A DNA stretch of 64,000 nucleotides, taken from the NCBI GenBank assembly GCA_949130485.1, contig OX422183.1, forward strand, positions 23,977,702-24,041,701, in the 5' to 3' direction. Positions 8,399-62,900 of the stretch are shown one piece after another. Made by a program: the position numbers and the translations under genes. This DNA is from Agelas oroides (taxonomy: Eukaryota; Porifera; Demospongiae; Agelasida; Agelasidae). Within the stretch, counting starts at the first letter, position 1. The number at the start of each line of letters is the position of its first letter. The notes beneath the pieces are model-generated. The model ran no database searches, was not told the DNA's origin, and worked only from the letters and a program-made list of their open reading frames with translations.

Positions 8399-11300
8399 AT
8401 GAGGTCTCTGCTGTATCTCCTGGCTCTGCTGCCCCTCGTTCTGGGTAACCTCTCTAGCAGGTACGCCTTCAGTTCCACCCTCTACGACAGGAATGGAGAT
8501 ACGTATGTGCTTCATTGGAACTTCAGCATTGCGGAGCGCACGATCGCATTTGCAGTGAACGTCAGTACGACGGGATGGGTGGGCTTCGGTCTTTCGCCCA
8601 ACGGTGGGATGGTCAACTCCGATGTTGTGATGGGGTGGGTGATCAACGGACGGACATACTTTCATGTGAGTTTGTATGGCTACAATCGTATGGGCGCATG
8701 CCTCACAATTGGACGTAGCTAGCTACGGCTATAGCTAAGATGCAATGTCTGCTGACTAAATTCAGTTGTTCGTGCAGTCAGTGTTTTAGTACAGCTAGGA
8801 GAGCCGCTCAAAGTGAGAAGGCTGATCGGCTAAGCTAGGTCATCGTACTTGCCTTTGTTGCCTGTTTAGTCTACTGTACATCAGATGGAGCTGCTTGGCA
8901 CAATCATGCCTTATCTCCTTTGCTTCAGGGCTTCAGACAGGATTCAATGAACATTTGAAGGAAATGTCCTATGGAATCACCAAGTTATTGATTTCCCATT
9001 CATCTCTCTACTTCATTGTTATCCTACACCTACAGGACCGCTTTGCTTTTCAACAAGCCCGGCCTCCCATTGATCCAAGCCAGGACTGGTTCTTGGTCAG
9101 AGGGCAGGAGGACGGTGGATACACCATCTTGGAGTTCACCAGGAACTGGACCACTTGTGATGACAGAGACAGAGACATTGAGGTATGTACAGAGGATGCA
9201 TTGATAGGAAGTTGTAATCATTGCTGCATGAGTGGGAAGCTGGGCAGCTGATGGTGTTGCATTGAGTCCCTGCATTTCTGTGACCATCATGTTTTGAGTG
9301 AACTACTGCTGTAATGTTTTCATATATATATATATATGTATCACATGAAGAAAAAGATTGGTTGTTTTAACCACTGAGTGGTTATCCTGATTGCAGACAA
9401 GCTGAGGAGACAGGTTAGGTTAATCATATGAACCTTACAAGTGACAACCCTCAGAACATTGACCTATGACTACACTTCAAAACTATGATGCTTTGTGGTG
9501 GCTCACAGGTGTTCAGTGGTTACTATATCTGTGAATTGCATGCTCTTTGATACAAGCTGGTGTGACCCCTTCAAAGATGTTCAGTGGTTACTAACTGGTT
9601 GTTAGATGTATAAGCTTCCTGTCTGGTTGTCTTATGTAAAATATAACCACCCTTTCTTCAGCTTGTCTGCATGCAATCAGGGTAAGCACTCTGTGGTTAA
9701 AACAACCGATTATATAGAGTAGTGCTTATCAACACAGATAATAGTATAGTATGGAAAGGAGAGAGCTTTGGTGGGAGGTTCATGCAGACAAGGGTAGGGT
9801 GAATTCAGCAGGAGGTGGGCAATGACCACTATTATGGTTGAGGGCCAGTTGAACAACATGCATGCGAGCAAGTCTTGCATGCTAAATGGATTCTTGTGAG
9901 ACCCTCTGTATGGAATAGAAGATGGATCTCAGAGCAATGCTGGGCTATCTAAAATCAACAAAAGTTGGGGTTTAAAACAACCTTGGTGCTCAAAGAATAA
10001 TTATGTATGTAGAATCAAAGAGGCATTAAACTACCTGTAGCATTTCTAGGTATAATTGTATGTACCCCTACGGGATGGGTGTGTCTAATTGTTGGACTGG
10101 AATATGGAATTGAATGGAACGGTGAATGTACACAGCTGACTCATGTAACTGGTGCTGCTCAGTTGAACTACCTACTCTATCTCTAAGGCTCCTATGTATC
10201 TCACTGCAGAAGCTTTATGAGCAAGTCTGACATTACATACACGTTTCTACATCCATACATGATACTGTAGCTAGCTCGTCATCATGCAGGTGCTTAGTTA
10301 CAGTAGTCTTGCTAAGTCAGACTCTCACACGAAAAGCAAGAGTCTGGCTTCATGTTGTTATATCAATGTACAAAAACTGGAGGTTGTATGACCCAAACAA
10401 TTTCATCTCAGTTGCAGTCTGGATTCATCGGTGGCCCACCTCCTTTTGCCAGGGTTTTGCCATGGTTTATGGTTATGCCCCTTGTCTGGTCAACGTTCCA
10501 GCAGAGCATGAATTAGGTTGCAAATGAAATTTATTTTGTAGTTGCATGTTTATGCCAAACAAAAGGGTGGAACTCTGGCTATATTCACGTATTAGTGGAT
10601 GAACTTGGAGAATATTCATGCACTACGGGTTCACCTGGGCAGTGATCATGCACAAGTATTCATGCCATATTGAAACTTTGAGTACACAAACACTGTAACC
10701 CTACACTGTGGTAAAAGTGGGAGGTGGTATGGACCAAGACCCTGCAACTGAGGTGACCCATCTTAGGTTAAATCAACCCTTTTCCCAGTGTTGTGAACAA
10801 AATTGTATAATGGCAGAAAGTAGTGCTCCATCCTTGAGGTCCCGTTTTACCATGACATCATGCAGACAAGGAAGTATACTGGACTTGCTCATACAGCCTC
10901 TGTATGTGATGAAATAAGAGCCCTAGTGACATAGTAGGTAGCTCAACTTGGATTGAGCAGTGCCAGTAGCACACATTAGCTGTATAACTGTGCACATTCA
11001 ATGCTTCATTCCATGTTCCATTCCACCATTCATTCCATATTCCATTCCACCATCCATTACATCTTCCAGTCCTGGACCAGCAATTAGAGACACTCCTACA
11101 GGATATGTGCCCATGCTTCTAGGTATGATATGATACCTGATGTTACCTGTGGTTTGTTTCTGGTTAGACCACTCTGGTTCTGAGCTATTTGTATGTAGTA
11201 AGCCGATAGCTGCTTCCTGCTTGCTGGTATATTGGCATTGTGTCAAGTTGCCTTGCTTGCACACACAGGCTAGATAGCCATGTATGTTTCAGTAGATTTC

Positions 11301-14300
11301 CTATTTAGGAATGGCATGGGATGTGTAACAAAGGTCTTCAAAACTCTATTGTCACTCTGTTGTAAGCTTTTATAGCCTGTTATTGTAACCAACAGGCAAT
11401 AGTGTCTTCAAAGCTCTGGGTCTTGACAGAACTGTTGTACTGAAATGGATCCACATTTGGGTTCAACAGCTTACACACAGTTTCATCACATATGGTCGAT
11501 GTTTAGTTGATAAAGCAACTGAAGACAGCATGCATACCCTGTCACTCCATTGCAGCTGATGAAGCCTGGTGTATATTGACCAAAACATGTCCTGTGACCT
11601 TTCACAACACTTGCAGTGGATGACCTTTATACTTACACCTGTTTTTGTTTTCAGAAGATGTGGCTCATTGATTGTTCATACATACAGCTGCAGCTATGCA
11701 TTTGAATAGTGTTTTTATTTTAGTATAATTAATTAACTGGGCAGACGTTTGAGATGATACGTCTGAATATTTTTCATTGACACCTTTATTGCTGGTAAGT
11801 AGTTTTCTTCACCAATAACCTTGTAGAATTGTTAGCACGCATGCAGTGCACTTTAAACAATATGCTGTGATGAAGAAACAATACTTGTATTTCGCAAGTG
11901 CAAGAACTACCACACATTGCCCTAAGTGAATAGTATTTTAAAAATGAAAAACTGAGTGTAGAATAATTGTATTCTGCAAGTGCACACATTGCCCTAAGTA
12001 AATAGTATTTGAAAGTGAACAAAGTGTATTTTCACTTTGCTAGCTACTAAGCAAATACTCTTAACTATGCAGGCCAACACAGCCCGTGTGATATTCAGCT
12101 GGAATGATGTGGACCCTACTATGGAAGATGGCAGTGATGCAATGCAACACATGACCAGGAGTTCGGCTAGTCTCAATCTCCTGGGTGGACTTCGCAGCAT
12201 ACCACCTGACCCCAGTGACACACTCTCCTTCACTTTTACAGTCAACAATGTATGTATGTTTTTGTTTTTTGTTTGTTGTTAGACATCTGGCCCCTTGGAA
12301 TCAATGGCTGACCCACAAATTCAGAAGAGGGCCAGGCTATCTCAGCCAAAAGAGCCTAGTTAATCCTTTGATTGTATGCTGTACTAGAGTTTATTTTGAG
12401 TAGGCCAAATTGATGCTATATGAGAGTATAGATTAGAAAGGTGTATATTCCGTACCCACTGTATGACAATATGCTTTTTTGTGGTAGGTTGAAATTCCCA
12501 GTGCAGACACGACTTACTGGTGTGCTGCCTATGAGCTGCCTCAGGAGGTCCAGCAACAGGAGCGATACATCATTCGAGTGAGTGAAAAAGTACCTTTATG
12601 TGCATCAAAAATCAGTAATCTGAAGTACAAACACCGTTCAGATATTGAATGATATACATGGCCCACTGAGTTTGCACAGTATGTGGTATGTCACTTTATA
12701 ATGTCACTTAAAATTGTCCAATGCTACAAACAGGTGTGAAATTGACGTAACCATAATGGGTCAAAACTATCAATTAATTATGTATAAACATGTACCTTTC
12801 TTTCTCTTTTCCTGTAGTTTGTTTGTTCTTATCAGTACTTAGGTGTGTAATTGACAATAACTGCTCTTTGTAAATTCAACAGCATTCACTTTTATGGCTA
12901 TTGTTGAAAATAAACCATTCAGTTAGTTCTCAGTACAACATAAACATTGTGTATTCTGTTATTGCTTCTGAGTAAAGCTTAATGGATATACACAACACCA
13001 TCAATTTCACTGTTCAATGGAATTTAAGCACTCTTAGAAGCTACCCTACTCAGTCTTTAGAGCAAGCTATGGAGTTGCACTTTTGTATGGTAAATGACTT
13101 AAAAATGATGGTACATTGAAACTAAATGCTGTACATATTGAACAAACGCTACATTCTCTGTTTAACTATGTATGTATGCACATTGCTATGTTCCATGGTA
13201 CATATGTCAGTAAACAACACCGGCCTCATTACTTGTTTATAAATTTTTGTGGGTACAAAATTTAAAAAAAAGAGTGCCAGGCCTTTAGAAGAAACTTTTG
13301 TTTTTGCAAGCACTTTGTGTGCTGCCACGCCCCCTAACATTGCTTTGTTTTCTGTTGAGCCAAATGTGAGAGGCAGCTATATGTAGATGCTGTTGACTTT
13401 TGTTAGTGCATGATGAATTAATTGCCAATGTCGGTGTGAGGGAATGGCAATGAGACCAAATACTTCCGTTTTGAGAATGAAGAGAGGTGAGATTATTTGC
13501 ATGCCAAACCAAACACTTTGGTATATTCAAATTTTTGTGCACTGAAATTTACACCAGGTAAACATTTTGCGCTATATGGTGCCATAAATTGCTGATAATC
13601 TTTCAATACAGTTTGGTGATGGGTATGTTGGTCTTCACTTTGCTCAGTGTAGAGACACATTCCAAAACATCAATCTCTTGTCCTTTATTTCAGTACTCAC
13701 CTCTGATTGACAATGAGAACTTTGCCTATGTTCACCACATGCTGGTCTATATTTGTGGGGGGCTGAATGAAACTGAAGTGAATGATAGTGCCCCATGTGA
13801 AGGTGGAGTTGGAGTGAGTCTGGGTGAATGTAGGTTTGGAGAGGTCCTTGCAGGATGGGCTGTAGGAGGAGAGGTAAGTAGTTTTTGCTTAATATCTCCT
13901 TTGTTATCAACAGGAAATAGAAAGTATACACCTGTAGGGATTAAACAATCTGCTTTGGGGGAAAAACCCCTATGCATGTTTGGGTGTTGGGAAGGCCAGA
14001 TATTTACTTGGGGAGCTACCATAATCTCTCGAAAACACGCCCATGGGCGGATGAACTTAAGTGGCTCCTCAAAGAGAGGGTGGGCGTATTTTTGAGAGTT
14101 GTGATAGTTCTCTTGAAAATACGCCCCTACCTCACACACAGTTAGTCTAGCCTTATTTATGTACTCATGCTGTGATTCTGCAATGCCTGTTTTGTCATGC
14201 GGTTAATAACAGCAAATTAATGGAGTGTCTGCCTTCATTTGTTAGTCCTTCCTCTTGCACAGCACAGCTTCTTCAGTCCTTCTAACTGCGTGTGCTACAG

Positions 14301-33170: not shown

Positions 33171-33210
33171 GCCCCCATATCACGCTGACATCGGAAGTTA
33201 CATGGCCAAT
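33171..33210 (+). promoter_or_regulatory. Conserved promoter segment of copy 2 with CCAAT box
   Basis: 33171-33196 begins GCCCCCATAT and matches 8309-8334 upstream of copy 1 at 21 of 26 positions. CCAAT follows at 33206-33210. Conservation between paralogues suggests a shared control element, but this is inferred. Confidence 0.5.
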
Positions 33211-33314
33211 TAGGGCGGTACCACGTGGGATTGCGTGAAAGGCAGCATCCGCAACATCTTGCGAACATAATATTTTGTGCACGCAGCTGTGCTAGCGTTG
33301 AATTGACCGCCACG

Positions 33315-35932
33315 ATGAGGTCTCTGCTGTATCTGCTGGCTCTGCTTCCCCTCGTTCTCGGTAACCTCTCCACCAGGTATGCCTTCAGTTCCACCCTTTA
33401 TAACAGGAATGGAGATACGTACGTGCTCCACTGGAACTTCAGCACTGCGGACCGCACAATCGCATTTGCAGTGAACGTCAGTACGACGGGTTGGGTGGGC
33501 TTCGGTCTCTCGCCCAACGGTGGGATGGTAAACTCCGATGTTGTGATGGGGTGGGTGAGCAACGGACGGACATACTTTCATGTGAGTTACGTTAGATGAA
33601 CAACTACTAAGAGCGGAACTATATGTGCACTTGATAGTCCGTATTATTGCAAAACTCTTGTGAGATCTGCCGCCAGTTGAGCTAAGCGGTGGCAATAGCT
33701 AGTTTGCTACTTCATCCTTCTAGTTGAATAAAAAAAAAATTGTTGTAATTTTTCCGTCGTGACGGTCGGCCAGTAGCTATCAAACTTGTACCTGTAAAAA
33801 TTATTGTGGCCAAAATTGGTTCATATGGTTCCTGTATGCAGAATATATTTGAATTGGTACAGAGGTGACAAGTTCTAAGACGAAACAAAGTGCTAATGAA
33901 ACTTCATCTACACCTGATGAAAAACTACAGTCAGTCTACATGCAGACTTCGAAATTTATTGATTGATTTAGGCAAAGTGGGCACAGGCTCGAACGTACAG
34001 AACACGCTACGAAAGCACAACCTGAGCTACACAGTCCTTCCTGCTCATTGTTATAACTTACAAAATATCCAATCTGCATAGCTATTGTACTCTCAAGCAC
34101 TTATGCAAGTGGCCTAGTGACCACTCTCAGCTGTGATTGATTTTCGATTTTGTCACACAACTATGGGCAGAACAGCCAAGAGCTCCGTAAATTTCTGGAC
34201 AAATTTTAACCCACTCTGACTACGTAGTCAAACTCAAAGTACTTTTCCAGTTATGGTTGAGCAAAGTTGTGATATTGTTCAGTAATCTGCTTGGAAATCC
34301 CAAGGAAGTTCATGGGACTTTCAATGGCAACTGAATGACAGCTGTATTGTGAACTGTTGTGTTGTGTAAGTTTACTGTACTTTTAGTTGACTACTTGTAA
34401 TAAATTATTGCTAATCTGACTTTGTAGGAGGTGGAATAAAATATATGGGAAGCCTGAGGTCTGCATTTAGACTGAGTGTCCTGCATGTCACATTGTGCCA
34501 GCATTTAGCATTACTAACAGCAAAGTCAGTTCAATTATGCATATTACATGACATGAGTTCGATATCTCTAAGGTGATATTTCAATTGTGTGTTACTTGAG
34601 GGATTTATTTATGATACCAGTTTTAAACACATCTTGGTTAATCATGTTTTTCAAAAACGACACATTCAACATTTTTTGGTGAAAAATAGTCACCCCCACT
34701 AGCTAGCTAGATACATGTGGTCGATACATTTTTTTTTTGTTATTTTTTTGGTGAATAATACTAGATCGGCTCCCTGCACTAGAAGTAAAAGAAAAGTGGG
34801 CGGGGATGAGCTTATGCCACTGCAAAAACAAAGTTGTTATTTTAGCTAAGTATTTGGTTACTACAGTTGCGTGACTATCCTTACTATAAAATTTTATGAA
34901 TGCAGTGCTGGAAAAGATTCATGCAGTGGGAGCTGATACATGAATAAACTTTACTAGCCTCCCACAAAATGTTTTACAAGCACTACATTCTTTGAATTAG
35001 AGTAGGAAGGATAGTCACGCAATTGTAGTAACGAAATAATTTGCTAAAACAGCAAATTTGTTTTTACAGTGTGAGATGTCATCATTTGGTTACAGTCATG
35101 CATATTGCTATTTTGTCTGCGTGGTTTACTAACCTGTTTGCCTTACATACATTGGTAACGTATTGTGTGTGTCCAAAATGTGAACACGTGTTGCCTAACC
35201 TTCAGTCATAATTTGCACACACATTGCCTAACAAGGTTGGTGTGTGTATTATAGAATCAACCCCTCTCCTACATGATGCTACACTATTCTAGACAAGGAC
35301 GTCTCATATTTCTATCATGGCGCACGATGACTGCCATATATAGGAATGGCCCCAAAAGAATAAATAATGGTAGCCACATTAAAGAGTGCACAAATGACAC
35401 GCTCAAAATGTTGCATTGTTACTTCATGATGTTGGTTACTTTGCATACACAGCCTTTCAAACTTCAGAGCCAGAAAGATTATTGCAGTTAGCTAATGTAC
35501 TGCTGCTACTAGTGTACTGTTTTGCATTCAGTTGAGCAACAGTACTATCTTATGTATGTGACATTACTCCCTTTCATGAATGTTGACTTTCATAAATATT
35601 GATATAAATGCATGATGACGTCTACATTGGCTACTACTCATGATCATCGTCCTCAATTTTTTTACTGGTCATTGACTGTCTGGATAGGACAATGTTTGGC
35701 TATGTCATAGAGAATTGCACTCATGAGCTGCCAAGAGTTGTCATCAGGTCATTGTAGAAGTATGTACATTTACTTAGAGGACAAGAGCAACCATGCAAGA
35801 TATTTTACCTCTGATGTTGTTCTTGTGAAGTTTAAAGCAGTATTACCAAAATATGATCGCGAGTGCCCACAGACCACCCAATTATAAATAACACTTAGCC
35901 TTCTTGTGTGCCCTCTTTGCATCAGTCATGTA

Positions 35933-47900: not shown

Positions 47901-50900
47901 ACTTTGAACTTTGAATCCTCCAGTGCTAAATTTACCCAAAAACTGGTGTACCCCTACACAATTACGCCATTTAGAGGTGCCAATTGAGCACTCTCAGCTG
48001 GTGTCACCAATATTTGGCCTTTGAAGAACTCCACAATACGGTGCTATTCTAAATCCTCTGGTGCTGAACAAGCCCAGGAAGCTGGTGTAGTTCTACACCA
48101 CTCGAGTGTAGCATTAGCACCATTTTAGAGGTGCTATCCGAGCACCCAAAGGTAGAGTCACTGAGTGGACACTCAAGTAACACCTCTTTTAAGTGTTAAT
48201 GTAACACCTCATTTTTAACAGTGTGGAGCAGCAAGCATTGGGCATAACCAAGTGGGCATAACCAAGTGGTTATGGAGTAGCAAGCACTATAGGCATAACC
48301 AAGCGGTTATGAAGCAACAAGTGTTTGGCATAACTAAGTGGTTATGGAGCAGAAAGCATTGGGCATAACCAAGCGAGCAAGCATTGCGCATAACCAAGCA
48401 GTTATGGAGCAGCAAGCATTGCGCATAACCAAGCGGTTATGGAGCATCAAGCATGGGGCATAACCAAGTGGTTATGGAGCAGCAAGCATTGGGCATAACC
48501 AAGTGGTTATGGAGTAGCAAGCACTATAGGCATAACCAAGCGGTTATGGGCAGCGAGCATTGGGTATAACCAAGTGGTTATGGAGCAGCAAGCATTGGGG
48601 ATAACCAAGTGGTTATGGAGTAGCAAGCACAACCAAGCGGTTGTGGAGCAGCAAGCATTGGGGATAACCAAGTGGTTATGGAGCAGCAAGCGGGCATAAC
48701 CAAGTGGTTACAGAGCAGCAAGCATTGGGGATAACCAAGTGGTTATGTAGCAGCAAGCATTGGGGATAGCCAAGTGGTTATGGAGCAGCAAGCGGGCATA
48801 ACCAAGTGGTTACGGAGCAGCAAGCATTGGGGATAACCAAGCGGTTATGAAGCAACAAGTGTTTGGCATAACTAAGTGGTTATGGAGCAGAAAGCATTGG
48901 GCATAACCAAGCGAGCAAGCATTGCGCATAACCAAGCAGTTATGGAGCAGCAAGCATTGGGCATAACCAAGTGGTTATGGAGCAGCAAGCATTGGGCATA
49001 ACCAAGTGGTTACGGAGCAGCAAGCATTGGGCATAACCAAGCGGTTATGAAGCAACAAGTGTTTGGCATAACCAAGTGGTTATGGAGCAGAAAGCATTGG
49101 GCATAACCAAGCGGTTATGGAGCAAGCTTTGGCATAATTTGCAGTTGCAGCAGCAAGCATTGGGCATAACCAAGTGGTTATGGAGTAGCAAGCACTATAG
49201 GCATAACCAAGCAGTTATGGGCAGCGAGCATTGGGTATAACGAAGCAGTTATGGAGCAGCAAGCATTGGGTATAACCAAGTGGGGCATAACCAAGTGGTT
49301 CACTGTAAAAAAAAGTGGGTAGTTTTAACCCATTTTGGTTACCTCAGTTTCATACCCTTTTCCACACGATTGGACAATTTCGTTAGCAAAGTATTCTCCC
49401 ATGACATTTACTAATGTTCTGGAAAGTCAAATTAAGTTGTTAATCTGTTTGGAATCTAAAGCAGGCAGTGGGACTCCAATGTGTTTAACAATGCAGAGAA
49501 TTGAAATAAAACTGAGGTAACCAAATTGAGTCAGAACAACCTTTCCTTTTTCACAGTGTATGGAGTAGCAAGCACAACCAAGCGGTTATGGAGCCGCAAG
49601 CATTGGGCATAACCAAGCGGTTATGGAGCGAGTTTTGGCATAATTTGCAGTTGCAGCAGCAATCATTGGGCATAACCAAGTGGCTATGGAGCAGCAAGCA
49701 ATTTGACTTAACCTAGTGGTTATGGAGCAAGCATGTATTAGGCATAACCGCATGGTTAGAAAGAAGCAGGCATTTTACATGACCTAGCTTTGTGAGCAAT
49801 AGGTGTTACACAACCTAGTATAGACATAACCCAGTACATAACCTGGCAGTTATAGAGCAGCAGGCGTTCTACATAACCCAGCGGTTATGGAGCGGCAAGC
49901 ATTAAGCATAACCTTGTTTATGGGGCAAGCAAGTGTAAACTGGTAATAGATCAGTAAACATTCAGAAAAACCCAGTGGTTATGGTAGTGGCAAGCTTAGC
50001 TTGACGCCTAACCTTGAGGTTAGGGAGCGGAAATCATTAGGCATACTGACCTAGCAGTTATGAACAGTAAGCATTAAAACTGACCTAGTAGTAATGGAGC
50101 AGTAAATATTCAGCATAACCTGGAGCAGCAAGTATTACGGCATAACCATGAGGTTATGGAGCGGTAAACATAAGGCACAACCAAGGCATTACCTAGTCTT
50201 GTGCCCAGACTACTGGCGGGCGCTAAAAATACGGTCTGGGAACGAGACTAGACACAACCAAGCGGTTATGGTGCGGCAAGCATAAGGCATACGCTACCTA
50301 CTAATAACAGCCGTTGGCTAAACATACCAGCTTGCAGGAGGAGGCCTGGGAGGAGAACGCGCGAAGTGGGGGTGGTGCTGTCGTGGGCGGCGAGTTCAGG
50401 TAGAGGGAGTCATTAAGGTGCAGAATTGGCTAAATTGCAAATTAGACCAAATTTGACAGCAATTTTACTGTCAAATTGCATACTATGCTATTATTTTGAT
50501 ACAGGCCTTCATGCAATGTGTATAATATACAATTTGACACAATTTGTATACTGTATGTATACTTTGTCTATTCTTGTGTGTAAGCCTATGGATTTTAAAT
50601 GTGTCTAATTAGTATTATTTTGTATATTTCTGTTTGTATTTTGTATATTTTAAATCAAACTTGTATATTTGTTATCAATGTATGCTGTCAAAATTGTGTA
50701 TAAATATATTCACTTTGTGTATAATTTGCAATCAAATTTGTATATTTCTGTGTTGAGGAAACCACCTTGTCAAAAGTGTATACTTTGTATATTTACATAT
50801 GTGTACTGTATAAATTTCAGTCACATTTGTATATTTTTGTATATTCTTCAGTAAATATGTAGCATATTTTTCAATTCAAACACATAATAACCGTAAATGT

Positions 50901-53900
50901 TCCGTATATCATGTTAAAATACACATGTAAATTATAATACATTTCAGTCACGTGGGATGCTTACTTCAGGTGATTATGCTCTCGGAGTTGTTGTTCTATG
51001 TACATGTTGCGATTGTGGATAATTGTTTGTAAGAAAAAGTTGAATCTGTGTTCGTGCATCTGCTTCAATGATGACTTGAGTTTATTGAGCCATCTGAAGG
51101 CTTGTTCGGCGCACTCCGTATTAACACCATGTACTTCACTCAGATGAGGGAGCAAAGGGTGGTATCTGCATGCTGGATTATCCGGAGGCATACAACATGG
51201 CTCTGTGTGTTTGCCAACGTGGAAGGCGTCTACAAAAAAAGAAACATTCCTGTTCAGCCACTTTGCGAAGAACCCCCCCTTTGACTCCACATTACACAGA
51301 AACGGGTGGAGATCACATGCTCTGTCATAACCAAGATATCTCAGTCGCTTGATATCGTCACCATGAGCAAACGTTGTAACAAGAAACAGGTACACTTGTG
51401 TTGGTGACTCGCATGTGTACATTTCTGTCGTGTTGACAATGACTCCACATGGACGTACAAGTGCGAGTATTCCTGCTGTTCTGTCGTAGAACTTTGTGAC
51501 ACCTTTTTCTTTGCGACATCCTGTAAGAACACTGCTATCATCATTTTCAGTTACCTCTCCAACCTTATCTTTCAACAAAATTGGATTGGGGGTGTGCAGA
51601 TTAGGTGCCTGTGGCAATGCTGTTGACGAACATGATGTCCCCTGCGAGCTTGATGTGGCAGCGTTCTCAAGACCATCATGAAGTGCACAAAACTTGGATG
51701 CCTTCACATGCTTACCTCCTGTCAACGGGGAACGGCAGCATAGACTGGTCATGCAAATGTGCTGATTTGGCAACCGTACTTTGCTCCTTGGAGCTGCACA
51801 AACTGTGCGGTTCAGCTTCTCATTTCCGTCAACCACAGCAAAACCCTCACTGCATCCCTTCAAAGTACACTTGTGTGAAACCCATCTTGGTGATGTTAAA
51901 GACCTATGCAGGTTCACTTGCTTGCAAAGATCATCAATATCCATTCTCTTCCCTTTGTTGGCATCACATCCAAGGTCTTGTGTTTCAAGACAGCCAGCAG
52001 ATTGGTGGTAAAGGATGACATTGTACAGGAACCAACCATCTTCAAGTCGCTTTTCATTCAGCTTCCAGCTCAAACTTGAAGCATTTCTCACTCGACTGAA
52101 TGATGACTTCAATGCACCAAGACAATCCTCATCGTGCATACCAAAGCATGAATTGTACACAAGCGCTTGGCTTTCAAAAGTAACACCTGCATGCACTATC
52201 TGTTGTGTTACTTGCTCAATAAGCTTCACTTCAAATACCGTTTGGGTACTTGTACTGATGTAAGGTGAATGTGATGGATCAAAGAAATGCTCCACCCTTT
52301 CTTCACCTTTCGGAGACCAGCTGCTGTGATGGATTACAGCTTTGCATTCACTGCACGTTGCGCTGTATGCAGCAGCAACAAGGGTTCCTTTAGTCGTGAA
52401 GACTAATGGAAATGCTGGACGGTTTCTGCAACAAAAAAAAATACAAATATCATCTTTCTTCATTAATGCCTAAATGAACAACATCAATCACATAATACAC
52501 AACCACTTCACACATACCTAACAACCACCTTCTTGCCACAGCATTCCATTCGACCAGGAAGTAGCACTAAAGGCTTCAAACCACTCTTGCTGCCATCAGA
52601 AAGCAACGCATCATCAAGTTTTCTTCTCTGCTCAAAGATTTCAGGATTACCCTGCTCAATAACGCTGTACATCTCTTTGCAGTGACCTTCACTCCCATCA
52701 AACTCACACACACAATGTTTCCGGCCTTTGTAAATGAAAAATAGCAAGCATTTCACACTACATCAATCAACTTCAATGGGAATTAAATAAATTACAACTA
52801 AACAACCAAACATACGTCTTCCAATCACTCCACTTTCATCACAATACACTAGGATTAAGGGGTTCATTATGGTTACTCCTGTCTTAACTCTTTGCACGCG
52901 GAAATGGTTTGTACAGTACCGTTTATTAACGCGGAAATTAATGTTATCAGTCTGAGGTCAAAGTGGCAAGCGTTGCCTAGCACGGCCCTGGGCAGTCCCA
53001 GTGGGCTGATTTGCATAGACAGCGTGTAACTAGGCTGGACTTGTTTATCTAAATAGCTGATCAGTGCTAGGTAAGCAATTTGTACTTGTTTGAAGCCATT
53101 ATCTGCGGCTTTACATCGTAGCTGACCAGCGATTCGAAACGGCGCCGATTTTCTCACTTGTCACCTACAGCCTTGACAGATTCAGCCGATTTCCAAGTTA
53201 TCTAAAGGTAGTACTCCAACCTTGAGTGAAAACTGGAGGCCGTTTGCTCCCCGTGGTGAAGAGAAAGCTTCGTGTTCAACAGCCCTTGGTCAAATTCACG
53301 ATCACTCGCGAACTAGCACCGCCCCTTCCTGCCTTTTATGAGATCAAAGTAAGTGCAAAAGGTGTGGCCTAGACTTATTACTACTCAATAGACAGGGATT
53401 TACCCTAACTTCTTGTTCGGCTTTACTATTGCGCGGTTCTGCTTTTCCCAAGATCCCGTGCAGATTTATGTGCACTTCGCGTAGGCTAAATTAATCACGT
53501 ATGCATATAAATCTGCACTTCGCGTGCAAAGAGTTAACATTGGGAATGCTTTTTGGGTAGGCAACATGTTACATGCTGGGTTAGGGCTAGGGTTAGGTTA
53601 GGGCTGGGTTAGGGTTAGGTTAGGACTGGTTAGGGTTTAGTTAGGGTTAGGTTAGGGCTGGTTAGGATTTAGTTAGGTTAGGACTGGTTAGGATTTAGTT
53701 AGGTTAGGACTGGTTAGGATTTAGTTAGGTTAGGGCTGGTTAGGATTTAGTTAGGTTAGGGCTGGTTAGGATTTAGTTAGGTTAGGGCTGGGTTAGGGTT
53801 AGGTTAGGGCTGGTTAGGGTTTAGTTAGGGTTAGGTTAGGGGTAGGTTATGGCTGGGTTAGGGAATGGCTTTTGTTAAACCACCAGCATACGCCTGGGTT

Positions 53901-56900
53901 AATTAAGCCTGCGAGATTACTAAGACTAGAGACTAATTAAGAGATTGAGTGTGTGGAAGCAGAAAATTGGCGACTTCACCAACAACAACTTGCAACAACA
54001 AACACTGACAACCCACCTCAGCTATGCATTGACAACTTCAGCTTCGAGGAATTACATCATGTGATGAAGAGAAACGGGTCACAGATACTGGGATTGTTTG
54101 ATGAAATGAGTACAATGTACTCTCAACTTGATCTCTACAAGCAGTCCGGTTCTGTAATGGATCGCAAGACACTCATTACACTGAATGGTGGAAGCTCCTG
54201 GTCAAGAAACTACCGAAATTACACAGCGTCAATGAAACAAACAGCATTCAACATGTCCGGCTTTATACAGCCATCCTTTGTAGAAAAGATGCTTCTTTCG
54301 GATGATGCTGATGGTTTCAATGATAGACAGCTTTTTGTGTTCCCTCCACAAAGAGATGTACTCCTCAATGAACTCAAGCTGCCTATTCCCTCCAACATTC
54401 CATCATTGAAAGGCGTTTACAGATTGCTTCGCACCATTCATTCCTCACCACATACCTATGTGTTGGTTGGTGATGCACTGGACACATACAGGGATTATCA
54501 TGACCAACTGGTCCGTCGTCAAAGTCGACAAGTGGATGGAAACATTCAAGGGATATTGTCAAAAGCTAGGGGCTACACAGCTCGATTGGCAATGATCCTA
54601 TTTGCACTTGAGCAGACACTCACTCATATAATTGAGGGTGAATGTGATGTGTGCCCCAATACATCATGGAGCTTTGACGTAAGCACTAGTTGTTCCAGGG
54701 CAGCATGTACCATCATGGATTACCTCATTCAGCAAAAGTTGATCATCATGGATGTCACAGAGGTAGACGAACACAATACTCTTCACGCTGATCAACTTGT
54801 GCAAATTCCAGATGCCAAACGCATGCGTAGACTACTGCTACTACCACTTGAAGACAGCGATGGCCAGATCACTCCATCCAAGCTGGCTCAAAAACATATC
54901 TGTGCACCAACTGACGGTAAATACACGGTCGTGAAAGCACTTGAACTGTTCCGCTCAGCCTCTTCAATGGGATTCGGCGAGCAAGTTGATCACGTTGTGC
55001 CAAGTACAAACCGTAAGGTTAGCCGATTCCGGAAGACACCTTACACTCTCCTCTCGTCAAACGCACGTAGCGCCTTGAGACAGCTTCGTATCACAGAGGA
55101 GGAATACAATCAAACTTTTCCGACATCTTCTACCACACCTTCAACGCCATCTCCCGATCCAGAGTTCTAGTATGTCACGTGTACGTTATCTTACTTCCGC
55201 AACTTCCGTGCACTCATTCCTCATAACTTCCTGTATTCATCATAATTCCTGTATTTATCATAACTTCCTGTATTCATCTTCAAAATGTTACTACATGTAC
55301 TAACACACCTCAACGCCGTCTACCCATCCCGAGTTTTTAACATAACTTCCTGTATTCATCTTCATACACTACACTTTCCTCATATCATGTTATTTACATG
55401 TAGTAACTATAAGCATCCATATTCATGCCACAAACTAAAACCGTCCACACTAAGTCATAAATTACTGTATATTGTCAAACTGTAATCAAATTAATGTATA
55501 ATTTAAATAGAAAGATGTCTAATTATACAAAATATACAAAGTTGACTTTGTACACATCAAAAACACTACTAAAAACAACAAAGTATAGTAATTTGACAAA
55601 CCAAAATATATTGTCAAACTGTAATCAAATCACTGTATAATTTTAATATAAAACATGTCTAATTATGCAAAATATACAAAATATACAAAGTTGACTTTGT
55701 ATACATCACAAACACTACTAAAAACAACAAAGTATAGTAATTTGACAAAACAAAATATACTGTATATTGTCAAACTGTAATCAAATTAATGTATAATTTC
55801 AATATAAAACATGTCTAATTATGCAAAATATACAAAATCTACAAAGTTGACTTTGTACACATCACAAACACTAGTAAAAACAACAAAGTATAGTAATTTG
55901 ACAAAACAAAATATACTGTATATTGTCAAACTGTAATCAAATTAATGTATAATTTCAATATAAAACTTGTATAATTATGCAAAATATACTAAATATACAA
56001 AGTTGACTTTGTACACATCACAAACACTAGTAAAAACAACAAAGTATAGTAATTTGACAAAACAAAATATACTGTATATTGTCAAACTGTAATCAAATTA
56101 ATGTATAATTTCAATATAAAACATGTCTAATTATACAAAATATACAAAATCTACAAAGTTGACTTTGTACACATCACAAACACTAGTAAAAACAACAAAG
56201 TATAGTAATTTGACAAAACAAAATATACTGTATATTGTCAAACTGTAATCAAATTAATGTATAATTTCAATATAAAACGTGTCTAATTATGCAAAATATA
56301 CTAAATATACAATGTTGACTTTGTACACATCACAAACACTAGTAAAAACAACAAAGTATAGTAATTTGACAAAACAAAATATACTGTATATTGTCAAACT
56401 GTAATCAAATTAATGTATAATTTCAATATAAAACATGTCTAATTATGCAAAATATACAAAATCTACAAAATTGACTTTGTACACATCACAAACACTAGTA
56501 AAAATAACAAAGTATAGTAATTTGACAAAACAAAATATACTGTATATTGTCAAACTGTTATCAAATTAATGTATAATTTAAATATAAAACATGTCTAATT
56601 ATGCAAAATATACTAAATATACAAAGTTGACTTTGTACACATCACAAACACTAGTAAAAACAACAAAGTATAGTAATTTGACAAACCAGAAAAGTAGACT
56701 GTATATTGTCAAATTGTTATGTACTACAAACATACACACTAACTTTACAAAATATACTGGCAAAATTCTAATTATACATGATTATACAAATCAAACATGT
56801 GTAAAACATGTATAATTGCATTAAACGTACAATGCAATTTGACATTGGTAAAGTCAAATTGATTTTAAGGGGTAAATTTAGCCAATTCTGCACCTTACTC

Positions 56901-59900
56901 GAGGGAGTATCTGTAATTGGAGCGCTGTTAGCCGCTGGCGCTCGAAGCGGCATCACCGTGACTATGACTGTTCGGCGAAACGGAGAAAATTTTTGAGTAG
57001 ATACAGGCAAAAAAGGTAGCTTCAATGGCTAACAATGAGTGCAAAGGCGGTTGCCACTGACATGCGTGGACTGAGCATGCGCAAAGCCCGCCCAGTATTA
57101 CATAATTGCACGTGCACTCAAGAGCCGTTCGTCGATTAACTTTGTTAAGTTTTCATCTATAAATCAAAGGCTACATGAGAGCTAGATCATCTGATACACA
57201 CTGCCTAGCTAGACCTTTATTTGTGTATTGTTCGGTCTAATCTTCCATCTTTTGTGAAGGCTCGTGTGCTGATTTTTATACTATGTGAGAGAGTGGATGC
57301 ATAACAGCTATATGGCAATGTATTTCCTTGTGTAGGCACAGATTCCCACTGCAGACACCACCTACTGGTGTGCTGCCTATGAGCTGCCTCAGGAGGTCCA
57401 GCAACAGGAGCGATACATCATCCGAGTGAGTACCTTAACTAGCTACCTTACCAGCAGCAAAAATCAGAGCACTACACGACACCCTCAGTCTAGATACACA
57501 AGCTATTCAACACCATAGCCCAGTACATTGTGCACCAGCATAATTTTGTGTAACCTGCTTGAAGTAAAATTGCACAGCTAATTCACATCAAGTAACATGC
57601 TCCTTCTCTTTATTTCAGTACTCACCTCTGATTGACAATGAGAACTTTGCCTATGTTCACCACATGCTGGTGTACATCTGTGCAGGACTGAATGAAGCTC
57701 AAGTGAATGATAGTGGTCCATGCAATGGAGGGGTAGGTGAGAGTTTGGCAGAATGTCGGAGTGGAGAGCTCATTGCAGGATGGGCTGTGGGTGGAGAGGT
57801 AAGCAATGCAGCATAATTAGAGTTCTTATCACATACCCTTGCAGTTCACATCTTGAGGGTTACTTTTATGCAGCTGGCTTTACTGCATCTATGCAGCTGG
57901 CTTTACTAGTTGAACTTCAAATAATAGAGTGCTAGTTAGCCTTGTACCCAGGCTCTTGGTGGACGAGGAGAAAAAGAGTATCCACTGTCATGCATGTAAT
58001 TATCCCCTGCTGAACATGTGTTCAGGCAATAGTGGAAGGGGTACGCATAATACTTATCCAAAACAAAGTTGAGGGCATACATCAACTTCAAACAGAATAT
58101 GAGAAAACAGAAAAGTATGTACAGAAAGTTAGAGTAAATCTCACTGATCTCTACTGGCACAATTGAGACTGGTAGGTACATTGGCCTCCCAGTAGAAGAG
58201 AGGATATTCTGGTCATGTAACACACGGCAGGTGGAAGACGAGCAGCATTTCTGTGTGGGATGTCCCACTCTAGAAGAGGATAGATCCCCCTTCTGGATCA
58301 TTTGAACCTCCTCCATTCCAGAGCACTCTCTGACGAAGACAAATTTATTACTACTTTGCAGAGTGCTGACAGTAGAATAGCTAAACTTCTTTATAATATG
58401 TTTATAAAGCATACTTCATGACTATATATATTAGTGACTTGTAAGCCGGAACTTCCAGTGAGGACAGCATGCGGCTAATAAGCGATGTGCGCTAAATAAC
58501 GAAGTGCGACGGTACACTACAACTAGCACTACACCGCCCTGATTCACTATACGTATTTTCCCCAGCAAACTACCTAACTAGAAGCTACCTGTACTTTCCT
58601 GAGACTCATATCAGAAGTACCTAGCCTTCGGAGGGAGCTGGAGAGCACAGCAGAATGAACGATCCAAGGACTTCTATCGTTGGTCAGAAAAAATGTGCAG
58701 ACAATGTAGTGATAAGTATACATTATGACGTCACGGTTGTATGGATATAACACGATAGTTTCCGATTTTCCCAAGTTTCTTGGAAATTAAGCGCATGCAC
58801 AAACAAACTCTTTTTCCCCACCCAATGTGTGCCTGAGTACGAGGCTAAGTGCTAATGCAAAGTTGAACATTGCACACATTGTTTACTGCAGGACTTCATC
58901 TATCCTGAGAATGTGGCCTACCCTATTGGTGGTCCAGGAAGTGCCAGGTTTCTTGTCATGGAGATGCATTTTGACAACCCAGATATGAGAAGTGGTATGT
59001 TAGACTTTCAGTACTTACTCTTTGTCAGACTTTCAGACTGAAAAGCAAAAATAGAAACAAAGAAGATGCTATAGAGTGTGTTGGGTCTGTGTGGTAAACA
59101 AAAGTTGTATTATCACTACACTGTAAAAATAAAATTGTGGTTTTGACTAATTATTTGGTTACTACAATTGCGTGACTGTCCTTCCTGCGCTAATTCAAAG
59201 AATGTAGTGCTTGTAAAACATTTTGTGGGAGGCTAGTAAAGTTTATTCAAGTATCAGCTCCCACTGCATGAATTCTTTTCCAGCACTGCATTCATAAAAT
59301 TTGCATAGTAAGGATAGTCACGCAACTGTAGTAACCAAATACTTTGCTAAAATAGCAACTTTGTTTTTGCAGTGTACTCAGATACAACCAAATGTTTTGT
59401 CTCATGTCTTCATTACTGCATTACAGAATGGAGAAGTAGCTGAAGAATGAGGCTATCTTTTGATTCATTGAACTTGAAATGTACATATGAAACTATATAC
59501 TGAGGTGCAGCTAGAGTAAACTAAGTATTGTTGTGTGCCAAATGTTGTTATGTGGCTCATACATGCTTCATAAATGCATGAATATCGAATGAATCTACGA
59601 AGCGCATATGAGCCTCGTCCTTAACGGAAGTTCAGCGCTATGTTTCGAATGCAACGATGCGATCGAAATAGATAGAGATAGATAGATAAACTTTTATTTT
59701 GAATAGGAATACTCCATCAGCTCATATAGCCGGTCTTCCCGGAGGTCCTAATACAAAGCAAAAGATAAAAGGATATAAAAAAAAGAAGACAAAACGTGCA
59801 CACAAAAAGAGGGAAAAGGAAAAAAAAATCCAAAATTAGAGCTCTAACAGCTGACCAAAAAAAAATTCTGTACATAACTTTTAAAGGCAGTTTCTGAGCG

Positions 59901-62900
59901 AATAGTCTTGATATTATTTGGAAGGTGGTTCCAGTCAAAAGCACCCTGATATTCAAAGGAGTTGCGATAAAAGTTAGTAGTTGGTCTCTTTAGGTAGAGG
60001 TTGCTACTGCCCCTGGTAGTGCGGAGGCCAAGGCTCTCGTTGGTAACAAACTTGGAGCACAGATACTGTGGAGCTCTTCTGAGGAGACATTTATGTACCA
60101 AGGCAAGTCTGAACAACCTCCTCCTTTGCTCCAGTGGTACCCAACCCAACCTACTCCTCAGCATTGCACTACAGGCAAGTCGTGGTGAGGATGTGATTAG
60201 CCGCATCCCATAGTTTTGCAACTGTTCGATTTCGTGTCTCAACGCTGCCCCACATTCCATCCAGACAACACAGCAATAGTCCATATGGGGAAGTACCAGA
60301 GCATTATACAGTCTTTTCTTGGTCTCAAATGGTAGAACGGAAGACACCCTTCTGAGTCTGGCCAGACTGCTCAAGCAGCTTCGTCTCACCTTACACACTT
60401 GGTCTTTCCAGGTGAGGTTTCTGTCTATATCCACACCCAAATATCTTACTTTCTCCTCACTCACAAGTATTGATCCATCTAGCTGGATACGAATCCGTTC
60501 AGCCTCACACTTTCTACGTCTCCTGCTTAGGACCATCAGTTGAGTTTTGCTCACATTCATCTTCAACTGATTCCGTTTGATCCAGTGGGCCACTGCTCCA
60601 AGCTCTGCTTCAAGAACTTCCTGTACTTCCTGAGGATCTTTGCTTGAGAAGTAGATAGTGGTGTCATCTGCATAGAGGTTCACATTGCAATTTTCAATGA
60701 CACTGGGGAGATCATTCATAAAAATTGTAAAAAGCAAAGGACCCAAAATGGAGCCCTGCGGAACTCCATTCACCATCTCACTCCATGTCGACTTTGCTCC
60801 GCCCACTACTACTCTCTGCTGTCTGTCCGTCAGATAGCTTAGAAACCACTCCTACACGATGGAGTAACCTACACTGCCACAAGTATTGTTGTGTGCCAAA
60901 TGTTGTTATGTGGTATTCTGGGAAAAGAGGTCTCATTAACGGATGAATGCATAGACTATTTGAAAGAGTGCCCACTACTTACTTTGGTGAACATGTAAGG
61001 TCCTCTGTTAATTGATCACACACCTGTGCAACCACCAGTTATAAGACTCTTGTAGGCATTCATTCAAGTAAAACTTTGATTTTGGTGTGAAATTGCAACA
61101 AAGGTTGCAGTGAGGACAGGGCCTAAAATAAGGGGGTAACACTGCCCATTTGTGCAGTGATTAAGCTAGAGTGGGCAGTGATAAAATCTAAGTTGGGCAG
61201 TGTTAAAAATTAATCTGAGTATATAAGCATATTCAACCAATAACCCATCTGATAAAAAGATACTGAAACAATAGTCACTCAAATCTAACAGAGGGTAGTG
61301 CTGGGTTCACACATTTAGAAGCATTTCCTTGCCATTGTAAAAACGCAAAATTTTTCCGTGTTTCCCGTGGGAACTTTGGGAAGGGCTGCTTCGCAGCCCA
61401 AGTTGGGCAGTGTTAAAAAATAGATATTTGAGGCCCTGAGTGAGGATAAACTACAAATTGATGTTTAACTTGCTACAGGTGTCATTGACAACTCTGGTAT
61501 TGAGTTTTTCTACACAAGTACACGGCGCCAGCATGATGCTGGAATTTTGACAGTTGGACATACAGTGGTCAGGAGCATGATCATCCCTCCAAATACTCAA
61601 AGCTACTCTATTCTTGGAGAGTGTTCTGCAGATTGCACCAGCACGGTATAAAATAGTTTTTTAATGCATGTAACTACAGAAATAGCTACCTGGCCTAGGG
61701 GTATTTAATGCAGCTATCACTGTTATGCCCCACCCTCCCAGGTTGGTAGAAGGTGGGGCATAATAGGGGATTTGAACATGGCAATTATCTAATTCCCTTC
61801 TACAGGGGCAGTCTCTTTTGTCAAATCAGTACTACACATGTGTGAATGTGCAGTAAAAATCCCCTATATGAAGCAATTACCCCTCCCAGGGGGCATGCTA
61901 CTGGGGTCAAACCCCCTTCAAAATCCCCACCCACCACCAACCTGTGAGGGTGGGATAGGTGCAATACAATAATTACTAGGTTTACGCATGTGCAGAGTAA
62001 GCCTCGCCCACGAAAGACCCATAATATAGGTGTGGTCAATGACTGAGGAGCGAAGCATGTCGAGGCGATGAGGAATGAGAGCGTGCTTTTGAGAAGTTTA
62101 CAGACATTAGCAAGATGTTGCAGCCTTCACCTAGTGCCAAAATGGTACTGTGCAGTAACTTCACTATCACTCTTGCATTTGCTCACTTAGTGTTGCAAGG
62201 CGTTGACTGCAGTCTGCTGGCCTCGAACTCCACTTCCTTGAGCTTCTGTTGTTTTGCTTCACTCTGTCTAGCTCTCTGGTTTTATTTTGTTGTTGCTGTC
62301 AAGTGCTGGTTGCGCTCTGCTAGCTCCGGTATTGCATTCCTACATGTAAGTGGGACGGAAGTTAGCACCACACCCCGCCAACCGAGAACAGCATACACTG
62401 CAAGATTAGTAGCCTTGCGCTAAGGCGCTCGGCAACAAAACAGAGAATGTTAGTTTTGTCTTTGTACGTATACCGTAGTGTCCCGTTAATACGCCCCCCC
62501 ATTTTGTACACTACATCCCGCCTAAAGTGGGGGGGGGGCTTATATTCGAGGATGCAATTAGTCTCGACTATAAGCCCCCCCCCCCCCCCCCCAAAAGATT
62601 TTACGCAAGTGCTATGTACGCAATTAGGACACTTCCAACTAACTATGGCGACGACTTTCAGGATCGAGAGTACTGTTCGCGGACATCACGTTTACAAAGC
62701 TGCGTGGTCTCCCTACATCGGAGAAGAGCTGCCAGTTCAACGCGAGGTCAATAACATTCACGACGACTTCGCTGTAGCTGTTCTCAAGAACGGCAACACT
62801 GTCGGTCATGTACCACGGTAAATTTCCAGAGTCTGCTGGTATTTCTTGCACAAGAGTGGCAGCGAGATGACTTGCATCGTCAATGGTGACAGAAGACGTT

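Follow-up and report, generated by a model that had tools for sequence, protein, structure and literature searches.

Among transposons with KDZ transposases, Zisupton elements have terminal inverted repeats (TIRs) and an 8-bp target-site duplication (TSD), one Dileera family also has an 8-bp duplication, and Kyakuja elements have a 7-bp duplication and no TIRs (PMC12730594). Zisupton proteins reach up to 1,400 amino acids, and two Pristionchus families have genes of 18 or 31 exons and no detected TSD (PMC9297572). Accessory genes are known from the group, as fungal KDZ elements have acquired TET/JBP genes more than once (PMC12730594). Elsewhere, RecQ is encoded by KolobokH, from fungi, and by Kolobok-1_CCri, from a red alga; in the latter it lies on the complementary strand (PMC9587614). 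DUF3987 proteins are predicted helicases of mobile elements (PMC5862659). Here we describe a KDZ element in a 64,000-nucleotide stretch of the genome of the sponge Agelas oroides (contig OX422183.1; the whole stretch is called the window). Within one pair of TIRs, this element holds a transposase gene and, in the opposite orientation, a truncated gene of the DUF3987 family.

The element is delimited by its TIRs and TSD, as follows.

50411..56900, no strand assigned: whole KDZ element, 6,490 bp
50403..50410, plus strand: left copy of the TSD GAGGGAGT, 8 bp
56901..56908, plus strand: right copy of the TSD GAGGGAGT
50414..50436, plus strand: left TIR, 23 nt exact, from repeat finding
56875..56897, minus strand: right TIR, from repeat finding

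The two TIR arms are 100% complementary over 23 nt and separated by 6,438 nt; among the 25 inverted pairs listed, of 94 between positions 50000 and 57300, this pair alone is perfect. Each arm is set 3 bp inside the element end, and GAGGGAGT starts three bases beyond each arm. The direct repeat is exactly 8 bp long, and the bases that adjoin the two copies differ. Chance is not a plausible source of a perfect 23-bp inverted pair whose arms lie at the same distance from an 8-bp direct repeat. The matching inverted ends and 8-bp duplication proposed in an earlier, sequence-only reading of this locus are both borne out. TIRs and an 8-bp TSD are the features published for the Zisupton lineage, and the element has both; the 8-bp length is not diagnostic of Zisupton, because a Dileera family shares it. 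Within the 64-kb window, the TIR arm had no further match with up to 6 mismatches allowed, and blastn of positions 50301-57000 against the rest of the window gave no match at E 0.01.

Between these ends we identified two genes.

52816..52867, minus strand: transposase exon 1, with the ATG starting at 52867
52518..52725, minus strand: transposase exon 2
50961..52425, minus strand: transposase exon 3, with most of CxC5, the KDZ domain and the stop codon
53941..55170, plus strand: 5'-truncated DUF3987 gene, 409 codons (stop to stop), earliest Met codon at 54064

The spliced transposase is 574 amino acids long and has no internal stop, and its introns of 90 and 92 bp both have GT..AG ends. Two Pfam families match it above their curated cut-offs: KDZ (2.2e-8, 34.5 bits against a cut-off of 26.6, profile positions 65-217 of 217) and the KDZ-associated cysteine cluster CxC5 (7.3e-7, 29.8 bits against 26.9, profile positions 19-117 of 117). 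Candidate catalytic motifs occur in the order VDGN at residue 285, YDRAC at 453 and NTECAEQ at 522, which may be those of a DDE catalytic triad. The VDGN candidate falls outside the matched part of the KDZ profile, and that stretch searched alone gave no match. The sequence-only reading had called the three-exon transposase intact. The term can mean no more than that its three exons are open and spliceable, because CxC5 is matched only from profile position 19 and published Zisupton proteins reach 1,400 amino acids. A nested insertion lies 16 bp from the ATG used, and the gene may have lost its 5' end.

The opposing open reading frame (ORF) matches DUF3987 (PF13148) at 1.4e-21 and 77.5 bits, above the cut-off of 27, and the oppositely oriented DUF3987-like frame of the sequence-only reading is thereby confirmed inside the element. 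The sequence-only reading would have been refuted had the ORF matched no P-loop ATPase family; in addition to DUF3987, it matches the phage DNA-helicase family phrog_2373 (PHROGs, 1.6e-5). A Ribosomal_S3Ae match (E 0.15) is under its Pfam cut-off. When these 1,230 bp were shuffled 2000 times by mononucleotides, the longest ORF in the three forward frames had 209 codons. The DUF3987 match covers only profile positions 110-361 of 364. The end of the domain is present in the 409-codon frame and profile positions 1-109 are unmatched.

The closest relatives of this ORF in the collections searched are plasmid-borne, and mostly cyanobacterial. tblastn against plasmids (E up to 1) returned six records with E values of 1e-9 to 0.6 and 21-25% identity, and tblastn against phages gave no match at E 0.01. 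We aligned three of the six (H2, 1e-9; H4, 3e-7; H1, 0.1) and omitted H3, H5 and H6. All three plasmid relatives scanned have an N-terminal Prim-Pol domain followed by a nearly full-length DUF3987 match. The window ORF resembles these Prim-Pol–DUF3987 proteins at about 24% identity across its retained part, but lacks both the primase and the part that contains the P-loop. Among the 41 DUF3987 columns that are invariant in the plasmid proteins, the window ORF keeps 14 of the 23 that fall within the retained part; over the first 18, it is gapped at 13 (including the G and K of the P-loop) and matches 2. Its LFDEMS motif aligns with the DE of all three plasmid proteins (D54 and E55 are invariant) and is presumably the acidic pair of Walker B.

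Neither protein matched an NCBIfam family, and the three matches of each in a sequence search of the PDB had E values of 0.33 or worse, as expected by chance. The transposase had no match in plasmids. A plasmid record and 14 control genomes were also searched for the KDZ family; none contained it, a result that is uninformative.

Two subterminal regions lie outside the genes.

50437..50960, no strand assigned: left subterminal region, AT-rich, containing TGTCAAA and TGTATA motifs
55524..56717, no strand assigned: subterminal tandem array near the right end, 156-bp unit, 7.7 copies, 95% matches

The G+C content is 26.5% outside the transposase and 25.0% outside the DUF3987 gene, compared with 44.3% in the core. 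TGTCAAA occurs three times on the plus and twice on the minus strand in the left subterminal 550 bp and nine times on each strand in the right 1,730 bp; the 4,210-bp core has a single copy, on the plus strand, and positions 1-50000 of the window have six on the plus and five on the minus strand. Codon usage of the transposase correlates with that of the DUF3987 gene at 0.76 in frame and at 0.31-0.64 in the other five frames, which lends weak support to a single element. The TIRs, the TSD and a common subterminal motif beside both genes place the two genes in one element. A candidate arrangement of two abutting elements was rejected on the same three features.

The missing part of the DUF3987 gene falls in the centre of the element, where two further features occur.

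52884..53537, no strand assigned: nested TTAA-flanked element of 654 bp between the two genes, with 17-bp perfect inverted ends TTAACTCTTTGCACGCG
53578..53863, no strand assigned: TTAGG-type minisatellite with 11/26-bp units, about at the expected P-loop codons

Judging by its ends, we take the nested element to be a piggyBac-like miniature inverted-repeat transposable element (MITE); a search of the window that allowed up to 3 mismatches gave no additional copy of TTAACTCTTTGCACGCG. The minisatellite resembles degenerate telomeric repeats, and GGGAATG, with similar sequence after it, occurs on either side (53542 and 53861). In the plasmid proteins, the P-loop (SGxxK[ST] in all three aligned) lies approximately 35-60 residues upstream of the point at which the alignment of the window ORF starts, which by estimate would put the corresponding codons about where the minisatellite now is, assuming no intron between.

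The motif [AG]xxxxGK[ST] is absent from all six frames of the element. Because this strict motif is met by just one of the three plasmid proteins, a looser scan met by all three was also run, and it matched the element twice, each time within the MITE and with the final S/T missing. When the P-loop regions of the plasmid proteins were compared with the element by tblastn, nothing credible was obtained (best E 0.85). Besides the MITE and the minisatellite, the interval from the transposase ATG to the DUF3987 frame holds 16 + 40 + 77 = 133 bp, which is too short for the approximately 109 missing codons; the 5' part of the gene is therefore not there. With the P-loop gone, conventional ATPase activity of the predicted product is very improbable.

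These results change several parts of the sequence-only reading. It had described a near-complete transposon, and the ends are indeed good; the term is generous, since the nested 654-bp TTAA element and the minisatellite break up the centre of this copy. Its helicase/primase assignment does not hold for this ORF, in which the P-loop and everything before it are gone and no Prim-Pol domain was matched; a primase function is rejected on the latter ground. The replication-linked mode of mobility that it had suggested drew solely on the family name and, in the absence of a P-loop, is rejected for the present copy. This copy is a damaged derivative and does not itself speak for helicase-driven mobility.

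The element resembles Zisupton and Dileera in its KDZ domain and cysteine cluster, TIRs, 8-bp TSD and multi-exon gene. Its transposase has 574 amino acids and three exons, compared with up to 1,400 amino acids in published proteins and 18 or 31 exons in the two Pristionchus families. It also differs from both lineages in holding a DUF3987 gene, a pairing that our literature search did not find. The fungal TET/JBP KDZ transposons similarly carry an unrelated accessory enzyme gene inside the element ends, but that enzyme is a dioxygenase, whereas here it is a truncated DUF3987 ATPase. KolobokH and Kolobok-1_CCri, like the window element, are DDE-type transposons with a helicase gene, but they belong to a different transposase superfamily, carry a different helicase family, come from fungi and a red alga, and are described with no mention of a truncation.

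The sequence-only reading had taken a helicase/primase-like partner to be non-standard for an animal KDZ element. The idea that a helicase partner would be new loses weight, because the RecQ-encoding Kolobok elements are a precedent for helicases in eukaryotic DDE transposons (PMC9587614). The literature search found no KDZ element with a DUF3987 gene, with an earlier description possible in Repbase or in the original Zisupton/KDZ papers; among the papers listed on DUF3987 and transposition, none is by its title about a eukaryotic transposon. What looks new is the unusual pairing of a DUF3987 gene with a KDZ element, seen in one damaged copy; KDZ accessory genes and helicase genes in DDE transposons are already known.

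Further copies were sought in collections of viral and prokaryotic contigs. In pattern-first searches of both, 2 to 56 stretches fit the pattern before tblastn. No relative was confirmed by tblastn in viral contigs for the DUF3987 ORF, the transposase exon 3 frame, a four-row alignment or the conserved cores of both proteins, nor in prokaryotic genome contigs for the transposase and the DUF3987 ORF. The exact 22-bp TIR core did not occur in viral contigs. A degenerate pattern, NT[EQ]xxEQxFxW, was found in four stretches, none significantly like the transposase by tblastn (best E 0.18; no family scan was made). Both collections consist of viral and prokaryotic sequences, and such patterns pick up only close relatives, so these misses say little about the host.

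To characterize the surroundings, eight further open frames of the window were scanned against Pfam. Four match copper type II monooxygenase or DOMON and one matches reverse transcriptase, all above cut-offs; exon-sized frames such as these are in keeping with an animal genome. The exon-sized monooxygenase and DOMON ORFs flank the element (8826-9251, 13562-14095, 33189-33599 and 57568-57816), which suggests a cluster of dopamine-beta-hydroxylase-like paralogues. The reverse transcriptase ORF (59844-60851, minus strand; RVT_1, 2.9e-20) is probably from an element without long terminal repeats (a non-LTR element). Positions 62366-62821 have a weak HIRAN-domain match (3.3e-4) that is under the Pfam cut-off.

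On balance, we lean towards the explanation that this is a copy of a Zisupton- or Dileera-like KDZ cut-and-paste transposon, the progenitor of which had a divergently oriented transposase gene and an accessory gene for a DUF3987 ATPase of the AAA+ type. DDE-type cut-and-paste would follow from membership of the KDZ family. The transposase would bind the repeated TGTCAAA/TGTATA subterminal motifs, which are probably its binding sites, cut at the TIRs and insert the element by 8-bp staggered joining. The intact progenitor ATPase may have aided excision, repair or the choice of target. The central region, with a shared promoter and the P-loop part, would then have been lost, probably through interrupted gap repair that left the TTAGG-type filler. 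In other DNA transposons, interrupted gap repair leaves an internal loss with filler at the break, a pattern that the TTAGG-type sequence would fit. The TTAA-flanked MITE would be an additional hit. As it is now, the copy could move at most by transposase made elsewhere, or by transposase made weakly from its own damaged promoter.

Several observations weigh against this explanation. The pair of KDZ and DUF3987 genes is known from one copy only, and because of this an intact progenitor ATPase and the status of the gene as an accessory gene of the family are things that we infer. At the very ends of the element, the outermost 3 bp are unlike (CAT on the left and GAG on the right, read inward). 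On the right, eight of the nine TGTCAAA motifs on each strand are within the 156-bp array, leaving one on each strand outside it, and the array copies are not independent because the unit was amplified. The contrast in codon usage between the true frame and the other frames is modest. The transposase leaves positions 1-64 of the KDZ profile unmatched and, judged by its 574 amino acids against up to 1,400 in published Zisupton proteins, may be truncated too. Finally, single-sequence AlphaFold models of the two proteins are unusable, with mean predicted local distance difference test scores of 35.0 and 33.9.

Alternatively, a KDZ copy or small subfamily may have taken up a DUF3987 fragment, of host, other mobile-element or foreign origin, that already lacked the P-loop, as a passenger with no role in transposition. 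The single copy and the start of the gene after the P-loop would fit such a capture, and KDZ elements do capture genes, as the fungal TET/JBP cases show (PMC12730594). However, an open frame of 409 codons persists, with the domain's end present and 14 of 23 plasmid-invariant columns kept; the damage is at the 5' end, beside the minisatellite and the MITE, which loss after arrival fits better. We consider the capture of a fragment possible but somewhat unlikely.

It is improbable that the protein without a P-loop is itself functional, perhaps binding DNA or acting as a dominant regulator, whether translated from an ATG further downstream or assembled from spliced exons. The long open frame and the retained Walker-B-like DE would be in keeping with such a function, and translation from the first in-frame Met (54064) would yield 368 amino acids. 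However, that start (residue 42) loses part of a domain match that begins at residue 15, the 133 bp of non-repeat sequence contain no plausible upstream exon, and across six frames there is no strict P-loop and the two loose matches are both in the MITE without S/T. That two separate elements or genes came by chance to lie within what seems one pair of ends is close to refuted by the exact 23-bp TIRs, by the equally exact TSD of 8 bp and by the subterminal motif that both genes have on their outer side, even if the nested insertion shows that the locus accepts other elements.

If the preferred explanation of a damaged KDZ transposon with an ancestral accessory ATPase gene is extended beyond this copy, an animal KDZ lineage might encode an AAA+-type ATPase, derived from a replication helicase, that is active in transposition through targeting, remodelling of the transposase complex or copying, and the window would hold a damaged member of it. 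In bacteria, the ATPases TnsC, IstB and MuB choose targets or remodel the transposase complex. We regard such a lineage as conceivable but unlikely. The present copy alone does not decide between two outcomes. If no intact relatives exist, the element would be one more DNA transposon that picked up a foreign gene. If they do exist, they would pair a KDZ transposase with an ATPase of the bacterial replication-helicase type, and the use of a dedicated ATPase by a eukaryotic cut-and-paste transposon would become testable.

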